A stretch of DNA of 20,213 bases, from positions 1 through 20,213 of IMG/VR virus record IMGVR_UViG_3300025168_008786; one strand, 5' to 3'. Shown piece by piece: positions 17,030 through 19,265 of this stretch (positions within the stretch are counted from its first letter, which is position 1; each line of letters starts with the position of its first letter). A model generated the notes under the pieces. It was not told the DNA's origin, ran no database searches, and saw nothing but the letters and a program-made list of their open reading frames with translations. Made by a program: the position numbers and the translations under genes. The DNA is from a virus.

Positions 17030-17271
17030 TCTTCTTCTCCTCCAAATGTTTTATCCCAACATTGTTTGCACAAATAATACGGAAACGGTCGTGTCGTGTC
17101 CGAGCCAATCAAAATGTCCCGTTGTTGTGGCGACAGGTTTCTGAAGATCCACGCCAAGTTGCCGCCTCCAAGCCATTCGGTGTACTGGTCTCGCATCACG
17201 CTGACGCTGTCTTGGTGGCTGCACCTCCCGCATGACGCTGTGAGTTCCACCCTGTCGGTTGCTGTAGTCAT
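17026..17271 (-). CDS. Zinc-ribbon-like protein, 81 residues
   Basis: The start is ATG 17271, which overlaps the methyltransferase stop as ATGA; a frame reaching 17403 would lie inside that gene. Two CxxC pairs, Cys14/Cys17 (CGRC) and Cys68/Cys71 (CKQC), could bind one zinc. Between them is LSPQQRDILIGSDTTRPF. From memory, small phage proteins with (L/S)...QR..LI.G and a closing C..CWD are frequent and uncharacterised. The end GGEEE overlaps the ATG of the short membrane protein. Nothing ties it specifically to the methyltransferase beyond coupling. Confidence 0.78.
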   Translation of the reverse strand: MTTATDRVELTASCGRCSHQDSVSVMRDQYTEWLGGGNLAWIFRNLSPQQRDILIGSDTTRPFPYYLCKQCWDKTFGGEEE

Positions 17272-18236
17272 GTTGCCTCCAGTTTGTCGGCCAGAACCTG
17301 TTGCATCAGCCACCCGTATGCGGCTGCCGCCTGCTGCGGGACAACACCGTTGCCCAACATCTTCAACTCCTGGGAGCGGGACAGACCCACGCCTGTCACC
17401 CACCCCTCAGGCAGACCCATCATCCACTCCACGAACCGTGACGACAGCTTGCTGTCGGTCACTGTGGCGGGGGCGCATCGTCCACTGGCCCACTCCCATC
17501 GGGCGATGGCGTCGGCATAGTCTCCCCACCCAACTTGGCTGCCACCACGTTCAGGGGATCTGAGTTTCTGTTCCACTGGGACGGACCCGCATTGTTCGCC
17601 CCGTCCTGGGCTGTCGGCGTCGGCAACAGACGCTGCACCTCTATTGACAGCGACTTGCCATGCGGGGCGTGCCTGCCGTCCGCTGCCTTCTGGTTGGGTG
17701 CCCACGCATCCCACCACTCCAACGTCTTGTTGGCCCCCATGTCGTTCACCACTGGCGTGGGCAACACAGAACCACCGCTCCCTGCGATGGCAGGCACCCA
17801 CCGACTGGTCGGCTCGAACACATGCCCACTCCGCATCGAACCCTCCGTCGGCCAACGCATCGAGGATCTGCCCGTAGGCATCACCTTGGTTGGCGGTGAG
17901 CACACCCCGCACGTTTTCCAGGAACAACCACTGTGCGCCTGCTCGTCTTGCCACAGAGACGACATCTCTGATCAACCACCTTTCATCGTCTATACCTGCC
18001 CGATTCCCAGCGTGGGACACGGGCTGACAAGGGAACCCCGCCGTGACCGCATCCACCTGTGGTGGATCGGCGATCTCGGTCAGGTCACCCAAGTTTGGTA
18101 CCCCGAACCGTGCATCCAACACAGCCGAAGCATGCTTGTCTGTCTCGGACACCCACACCAGGTCGGTGTCGATGCCTGCTAGTTGCAGCCCCAGTTCGAG
18201 GCCGCCGTACCCTGCACACAGAGCACCCACCCTCAT
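17268..18236 (-). CDS. Cytosine-5 DNA methyltransferase (Dcm type)
   Basis: This 322-residue enzyme would transfer a methyl group from S-adenosylmethionine to C5 of cytosine. Motifs in order: I LCAGYGGLELGL (residues 6-17), IV AGFPCQPVS with catalytic Cys70, VI LENV (106-109), VIII HRRERW (150-155), and X LGNGVVPQQ (294-302). The target-recognition region is about residues 156-265. WGDYADAIARWE and FVEWMMGLPEGWVT are typical of phage members. No restriction nuclease is adjacent, so it is probably an orphan that protects phage DNA. The gene is much more GC-rich than its neighbours (70% in 17461-17520, 42% in 16861-16920), suggesting separate acquisition. It overlaps both neighbours as ATGA. 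A second open frame inside it is listed separately. Confidence 0.95.
   Translation of the reverse strand: MRVGALCAGYGGLELGLQLAGIDTDLVWVSETDKHASAVLDARFGVPNLGDLTEIADPPQVDAVTAGFPCQPVSHAGNRAGIDDERWLIRDVVSVARRAGAQWLFLENVRGVLTANQGDAYGQILDALADGGFDAEWACVRADQSVGACHRRERWFCVAHASGERHGGQQDVGVVGCVGTQPEGSGRQARPAWQVAVNRGAASVADADSPGRGEQCGSVPVEQKLRSPERGGSQVGWGDYADAIARWEWASGRCAPATVTDSKLSSRFVEWMMGLPEGWVTGVGLSRSQELKMLGNGVVPQQAAAAYGWLMQQVLADKLEAT
17459..17773 (-). other. Overlapping +1 open frame within the methyltransferase, with LPTP motifs
   Basis: Shifted by one base from the methyltransferase frame, this stretch is open for over 100 codons and reads VLPTPVVNDMG, KTLEWWDAW, HGKSLSIE, LLPTPTAQDGANNAGPSQ and MPTPSPDGS before a stop at 17459. 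From memory, LPTP-containing segments of this kind occur in the target-recognition region of other phage cytosine methyltransferases. Here the main frame reads CVAHASG, SVADADS and YADAIAR at the same three places. The stretch may be a fossil of a former frame, a source of frame-switched specificity, or chance in GC-rich DNA. The full open frame extends upstream to 17965. Confidence 0.35.
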
Positions 18237-18621: not shown

Positions 18622-19014
18622 TTACTCCCCTGCCCTTACGGGCCAAATAGTCTTGTTTTCTCTTTTGATTTCACCTGTCAATACCCACGCTTTTCTCACG
18701 CGCCTCCGCTCACGCGGACTACAGCCACCCCACACGCCGTGAGTCTCATTGACCACAACAGCGTGAATTAAGCAGTCGTCAACCACAGGGCACGAGTCGC
18801 AATATTCACGCGCTAGATCGGCTCGATGGAGTGGTTCGGGATAGAACGGAAGTGGGCCAGCGGTCCTACAAGCTGCGTGCTCCATCCACAACGGCTGCTC
18901 AATTGTCTGCAGCAAACTAGCAACCGAACCAGGTATGTCTTCTTCTGGTGCGGGACAATCCGACTCGTGGCCCGTGGTGCCCGAACCGTCACAATCTGGA
19001 CAATCGGTGGTCAT
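18622..19014 (-). CDS. WhiB-like Fe-S transcription regulator with extra N-terminal Cys motif
   Basis: The start is ATG 19014, which overlaps the preceding stop as ATGA; a GTG at 19026 is the alternative. Of 130 residues, 44-110 form the WhiB domain: ACR with Cys49, then Cys72, Cys75 and Cys81 (C-x2-C-x5-C), which bind a [4Fe-4S] cluster, followed by GVWGG (93-97) and a basic helix (SPRERRRVRKAW). Wbl proteins typically work by binding region 4 of the principal sigma factor. The N-terminus adds CPDCDGSGTTGHESDC with Cys5, Cys8 and Cys20, like a CxxCxGxG zinc motif, which is unusual for the family. Phage Wbl proteins can influence host transcription. The gene lies mid-operon. Confidence 0.92.
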   Translation of the reverse strand: MTTDCPDCDGSGTTGHESDCPAPEEDIPGSVASLLQTIEQPLWMEHAACRTAGPLPFYPEPLHRADLAREYCDSCPVVDDCLIHAVVVNETHGVWGGCSPRERRRVRKAWVLTGEIKRENKTIWPVRAGE

Positions 19015-19265
19015 AGCATCACCCACGCGTCGTGGTTGGCTATCAGGTCAGCACGCTGACCATCTACCCAATCCACGACCGTATGCCCTTGAATAGCGCC
19101 ACGACCAAGAGCACGCGTTACTCGGTAGTGTCGGATCACGCCCTCGGAACCAATCGGTAGCCCAAGATAGTCCATGGTGGATGACTCCAACCTGACTCGT
19201 CGGCCCGCGTTGCTGCGATCAATGGATGATGCACCGTTCGCTAAGTAACCATGGATCAGACTCAT
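19011..19265 (-). CDS. DUF4314-like small protein, 84 residues
   Basis: I start at ATG 19265, one base after the upstream stop (TGATATG); an in-frame ATG at 19277 would add four residues and cannot be excluded. The core RRVRLESSTMDYLGLPIGSEGVIRHYRV, then TVVDWVDGQRADLIANHD, has the pattern of DUF4314/KOW-like small beta proteins as I recall them: G.RVRL, (L/M)P.G.EG.V, and V.W.DG...L....D. Such proteins are common in phages and have no established role. The end overlaps the WhiB start. Confidence 0.7.
   Translation of the reverse strand: MSLIHGYLANGASSIDRSNAGRRVRLESSTMDYLGLPIGSEGVIRHYRVTRALGRGAIQGHTVVDWVDGQRADLIANHDAWVML

Follow-up and report, generated by a model that had tools for sequence, protein, structure and literature searches.

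A viral cytosine-C5 methyltransferase gene overlapped in the +1 frame by a conserved gene that probably encodes its target-recognition chain

The window analysed here, the whole of a 20,213-base stretch of DNA from a virus record, carries on its minus strand a cytosine-C5 DNA methyltransferase gene within which a second reading frame stays open over the same bases. This raises the question of whether the locus encodes one protein or two, and of which frame selection acts on. The first-pass annotation had described a complete main frame with motifs I, IV, VI, VIII and X and, one base over, a 168-codon frame with LPTP strings, and had suggested that the specificity region is dual-coding or arose or switched by paired frameshifts. 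Both frames are present as described, as is motif IX, which was missing from that list. The main frame, here called alpha, has the following features:

17268..18236, minus strand: alpha, complete 322-aa frame of a cytosine-C5 DNA methyltransferase (PF00145, E 3e-37)
17400..17444, minus strand: motif IX of alpha (SSRFVEWMMGLPEGW), read in the beta frame in M.EcoHK31I-like relatives
17328..17357, minus strand: motif X of alpha (LGNGVVPQQA), assigned by motif position

Alpha belongs to PF00145 and contains, in order, motifs I (CAGYGG), IV (GFPCQPVS, with the catalytic PCQ), VI (ENV), VIII (HRRERWF), IX and X; it also matches phrog_363 and phrog_116 (E ~1e-54). The PF00145 match is restricted to profile positions 1-165 of 324. 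In a conventional single-chain C5 methyltransferase the variable region between motifs VIII and IX is constrained in the catalytic frame. This is not the case for alpha, since its overlap-aware rate ratio NN/SN is 1.04-1.35 in this region versus 0.17 in the upstream non-overlapping region N1, and since its PF00145 match ends at position 165.

The second frame, here called beta, lies entirely inside alpha and is accompanied by candidate translation signals:

17459..17965, minus strand: beta, a 168-aa ORF overlapping alpha in the +1 frame, with its ATG at 17965-17963 and its stop at 17461-17459
17630..17767, minus strand: LPTP module 1 of beta (VLPTPVVNDMGANKTLEWWDAWAPNQKAADGRHAPHGKSLSIEVQR), putative target-recognition module, with related segments in relatives
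17519..17629, minus strand: LPTP module 2 of beta (LLPTPTAQDGANNAGPSQWNRNSDPLNVVAAKLGGET), putative target-recognition module, identified by sequence and homology search
17462..17518, minus strand: C-terminal tail of beta (MPTPSPDGSGPVDDAPPPQ), which shares its DNA with the alpha segment WGDYADAIARWE
17976..17983, minus strand: putative ribosome-binding site of beta, AAAGGTGG, 10 nt 5' of the ATG (duplex with the anti-Shine-Dalgarno sequence, -7.9 kcal/mol)
17972..17986, minus strand: mini-ORF of five codons (ATG AAA GGT GGT TGA), in frame with beta; 6 nt separate its end from the beta ATG

The +1 readings VLPTPVVNDMG (17767), LLPTPTAQDG (17629) and MPTPSPDG (17518) face CVAHASG, SVADADS and YADAIAR in the main frame. 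Segments related to module 1 occur in the homologous loci L008 (73%) and L037 (50%), and L055 and L050 carry the same module in their main frame. The in-frame stop of the mini-ORF and the beta ATG are both retained in 11 near homologues, and translational coupling of the two is possible.

Beta also has relatives of its own. It matches phrog_1008 over residues 35-135 (E 1.7e-7), and the same family is matched by 48 of the 51 homologous beta proteins. A tblastn search with the LPTP segment matched 40 phage records, the best (7e-9) being gp44 of Arthrobacter phage Andrew, a separately annotated 'DNA methyltransferase' that overlaps gp43. The suggestion that both frames match real protein families is upheld; no relatives of beta were found in Pfam, NCBIfam or the PDB. 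In PHROGs v4, phrog_1008 is itself named 'DNA methyltransferase'; neither its entry nor the papers found mention +1 overprinting on a catalytic chain. The shifted frame is often more conserved than the main one in IMG/VR relatives (73% versus 43% in L008, 99% versus 91% in L006). Most genes have one to eight LPTP motifs, which suggests multi-target enzymes. In L077 (644-2752) the recognition region spans about 465 codons and contains eight LPTP motifs; both frames are open throughout it, and the third contains ten stops.

Openness of the shifted frame was assessed in 71 homologues (the first sample) by shuffling synonymous codons and comparing observed with expected stops in each frame. Over the last 40 catalytic codons, the +1 frame contains no stops where 63.6 +- 6.7 are expected, and in the recognition region 26 versus 86.7; in the first catalytic part there is no depletion (238 versus 211). 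Frame +2 shows nothing comparable, and in a negative-control set of 31 C5 methyltransferases without a beta match, nine of which share genomes with beta-bearing genes, observed stops approximate expected ones in every frame. The open +1 frame therefore exceeds chance. In genomes that carry both kinds of gene, a beta match accompanies a PF00145 match ending by about profile position 185, whereas genes whose match reaches the end of the profile have no beta match. A second sample, made up of 89 genes obtained almost entirely with a beta query, gave 0 versus 101 stops over the last 40 catalytic codons and 2 versus 73 in the recognition region. The reciprocal test, in which the codons of 41 genes of the window's type were shuffled synonymously with respect to beta, gave no alpha-frame stops against 69.3 +- 6.5 expected, and 160 against 154 in the third frame.

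The distribution of substitutions identifies the frame that is constrained in each part of the gene. Among pairs less than 30% divergent, main-frame position 3 takes 56-64% of substitutions in the catalytic region, whereas between motifs VIII and IX main-frame position 1, which is position 3 of beta, takes 45-52%; the latter bias persists after these pairs are realigned on the main frame. Overlap-aware rates in the recognition region are 0.39 for beta (NN/NS) and 1.04 for alpha (NN/SN); in N1 they are 0.17 for alpha (NN/SN) and 0.96 for beta (SN/SS). On the basis of the codon-position pattern and these rates, beta is under purifying selection in the recognition region, and alpha looks neutral there apart from staying open. 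The proposal of dual coding is borne out by the stop, codon-position and rate tests, but the hierarchy implied by treating the shifted frame as secondary is reversed in this region. Constraint confined to the main frame, or a shifted frame devoid of real relatives, would have spoken against dual coding, and neither was found. An origin of the pattern in DNA repeats propagated by recombination alone was ruled out, as the changes sit at beta-synonymous positions.

Beta was located at 108 loci, comprising 101 found by beta homology in a search with a three-sequence alignment and seven annotated phages from beta-query matches. It is exactly +1 to alpha (alpha being -1 to beta) and overlaps the catalytic domain in all 108, 107 of which were found with the beta query, and it was never found apart from alpha among them. 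Judging by record titles, 21 loci lie on cellular contigs of Alphaproteobacteria, Gemmatimonadetes, Bacteroidetes, Planctomycetota, Bacillota, Desulforhopalus and Bdellovibrionales. Alpha alone is annotated in phages of Stenotrophomonas, Acinetobacter, Synechococcus, Salmonella, Lacticaseibacillus and Gordonia; both genes are annotated as overlapping in Arthrobacter phage Andrew (gp43/44) and in Mycobacterium phages Steamy (77/76) and Kristoff (77/76). Together, these comparisons show at the level of sequence that both frames are selectively maintained and that beta represents a conserved family, always in the +1 frame, with an internal start and a putative ribosome-binding site.

Four layouts of the recognition modules and the C-terminal motifs were distinguished in the first sample. 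In layout I, that of the window, the modules are in beta while motifs IX and X are in alpha (38 of 71 genes). Layout II, found in at least 13 of the 71 (e.g. L066, L080 and L095), has the modules and motif IX in beta and motif X in alpha. In layout III the modules and both motifs are all in beta (four genes by motif, more by annotation; e.g. L002, which is phage Andrew, and L011). Layout IV, represented by five genes (e.g. L068, L055, L071 and L050), is a single chain whose main frame itself encodes the LPTP modules. In a FastTree phylogeny with some weak nodes, layout II forms its own part, and layouts III and IV emerge several times among layout I genes, with six and four label changes, respectively; Kristoff was labelled II by motif search and III by its annotation. 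As judged from these label changes, frame switches are real but rare and derived. The earlier idea of paired frameshifts does not serve as a general explanation, beta being +1 at all 108 loci.

Some individual genes are less regular. The recognition regions of L055 and L050 are mosaic: the first LPTP module of the gene is read at +1 and the one after it in the main frame. L069 and L082 have the first half of the catalytic domain in the frame of the LPTP segment (clearly so in L069), and motif VIII and the C-terminal block in another; the break, which is similar on the two contigs, resembles a one-base shift fusing the start of alpha to beta.

In M.EcoHK31I the small chain is read from an alternative frame that overlaps the large one. 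Natural two-chain C5 methyltransferases are represented by M.AquI and M.EcoHK31I, each composed of two polypeptides, and fragments of several enzymes of this class complement one another (PMC3404938). In M.EcoHK31I (YGGCCR) the larger chain contains motifs I-VIII and X and the smaller one motif IX (PMC3404938, citing Lee et al. 1995), with the recognition domain predicted in the larger chain (PMC3404938). In M.AquI (CYCGRG) the large chain contains motifs I-VIII, and the small chain the distal variable region and motifs IX-X (PMC3404938). The window resembles both in having, at the gene level, a second chain encoded by an overlapping gene, as judged from a beta ORF with a start, a Shine-Dalgarno sequence, selection and a family match. 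It follows neither type, because IX and X are both in alpha. The small chain of M.EcoHK31I is described as carrying motif IX and that of the window holds LPTP modules only, a distinction drawn from the published description rather than from sequence; the IX/X split of M.EcoHK31I itself is seen in the homologues with layout II, except for where its recognition domain was predicted. The M.AquI small chain includes only part of the variable region, together with IX and X, motifs that the window's small chain lacks, while its split is close to layout III and is seen in phage Andrew (L002), L011 and L074. Another protein hidden in an actinophage methylase gene is the HNH endonuclease encoded out of frame in phage ShiLan (PMC11855218), where the methylase frame likewise stays open. 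However, that insertion is a mobile homing element, sporadic and in the third frame, whereas beta is a constant +1 partner. In the literature covered by the search, outside which most subscription papers lay, no general +1 specificity subunit was described beyond M.EcoHK31I, M.AquI and the ShiLan HNH endonuclease.

We consider it very likely that the locus comprises two overlapping genes, a catalytic alpha and a +1 beta that is translated from its own ATG and supplies target recognition, and that the two chains most likely form one enzyme. Alpha would be the catalytic chain, providing the AdoMet-binding and catalytic motifs I-VIII followed by IX and X. Both chains would be translated from one mRNA, beta initiating in the +1 frame at the ATG at 17965 inside alpha and contributing one or more LPTP modules. 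The part of alpha between motifs VIII and IX behaves as an unconstrained linker that needs only to remain open. The two chains would assemble into a single enzyme with beta as its specificity determinant; gain or loss of a module could then alter specificity with catalysis untouched. We infer the role of the LPTP modules in target recognition from where they lie, between motifs VIII and IX, and not from structure. The predicted fold of L068, a natural single-chain relative, matches M.HhaI (3e-15) with its LPTP part between these motifs, the LPTP region itself being predicted with low confidence.

It is improbable that beta is instead a separate protein, such as a regulator or a counter-defence factor, unrelated to methylation specificity and overprinted by happenstance. 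Such a protein would agree with the absence from the window's beta of any catalytic, IX or X motif, with the lack of Pfam, NCBIfam and PDB matches, and with the poor structure predicted for beta alone (mean pLDDT 61.6). However, the beta frame of relatives carries motif IX, or IX together with X; the single-chain enzymes place LPTP modules between VIII and IX; and beta was never found away from alpha at the 108 loci.

The position at which beta begins bears on another possibility, somewhat less probable still, that programmed ribosomal frameshifting yields one chain through a +1 slip near motif VIII and, in genes of the window's type, a slip back before motif IX. The single-chain relatives with main-frame LPTP modules indicate that a polypeptide with this order of parts is workable. 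In the first sample, the depletion of +1 stops sets in about 65 codons short of the end of the catalytic part, and starts (ATG, GTG or TTG) preceded by a good Shine-Dalgarno sequence peak at that boundary (32+11 = 43 genes versus 13 expected), a peak that argues against frameshifting. An ATG or GTG with a Shine-Dalgarno sequence occurs within the beta-start interval in 52 of the 71 genes (21.7 expected), and many relatives have this site within the stretch encoding AGKRKGxNDER. The second sample shows avoidance from about 95 codons upstream, some 30 further than the first, and no enrichment of such starts near -69 (29 versus 27 expected). Frameshifting needs nothing from these 65-95 stop-free codons upstream of the junction; because stop avoidance reaches so far beyond the domain boundary, a separate start is favoured over a slip there. 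Two opposite slips would be required, moreover, and alpha is open across the whole region.

That the shifted frame is a by-product, the gene being GC-rich with repeats of GCCGACGCC-type DNA and its +1 frame open and repetitive by chance, is extremely improbable: VADA and LPTP are indeed one DNA read in two frames, and alpha partly dictates the +1 reading of the catalytic segment, but the 31-gene control, together with the synonymous shuffles and frame +2, rules out a GC-rich or low-complexity artefact, and AT-rich relatives and the codon-position pattern likewise contradict this origin.

For the family as a whole, the preferred two-gene reading leads to a broader proposal, which we regard as likely: across a large family of C5 methyltransferases from phages and prokaryotes, a +1-overprinted specificity subunit would be obligatory and its LPTP modules exchangeable, each in-frame insertion lengthening the neutral linker and adding a DNA-target module, and this second protein would have been missed in most of the annotated records examined. 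Obligate overlapping genes have rarely been demonstrated across many phyla in phages and bacteria, and the one hidden here is probably a specificity subunit. If so, truncated-looking C5 methyltransferases, in which the PF00145 match ends near position 165-190, would each be half an enzyme on paper; a clone of the annotated frame alone may fail or mislead, and assigning methylomes to genes would require the hidden partner. PHROG 1008 would be explained, and the family would provide a natural system in which modules are exchanged under a two-frame constraint.

Several minor observations concern particular loci. In L058 and L059 an intein-like insert splits the methyltransferase exactly between PC and Q of the catalytic motif (GGSPC-FVAGTSVLTHDG...IVVHN-CQDLS; about 1394-3481 in L058). 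The gene of Salmonella phage S9-5 (L099) has E. coli counterparts (e.g. NZ_CP090448.1, 1254489-1255210) that are annotated as DNA cytosine methyltransferase, with copies of 94.5% identity on two chromosomes and of 75% on two others. Elsewhere in the window, the minus-strand frame at 18622-19026 encodes a WhiB-like protein, with four cysteines and a GVWGG motif recognised by eye, which would indicate an actinobacterial host.
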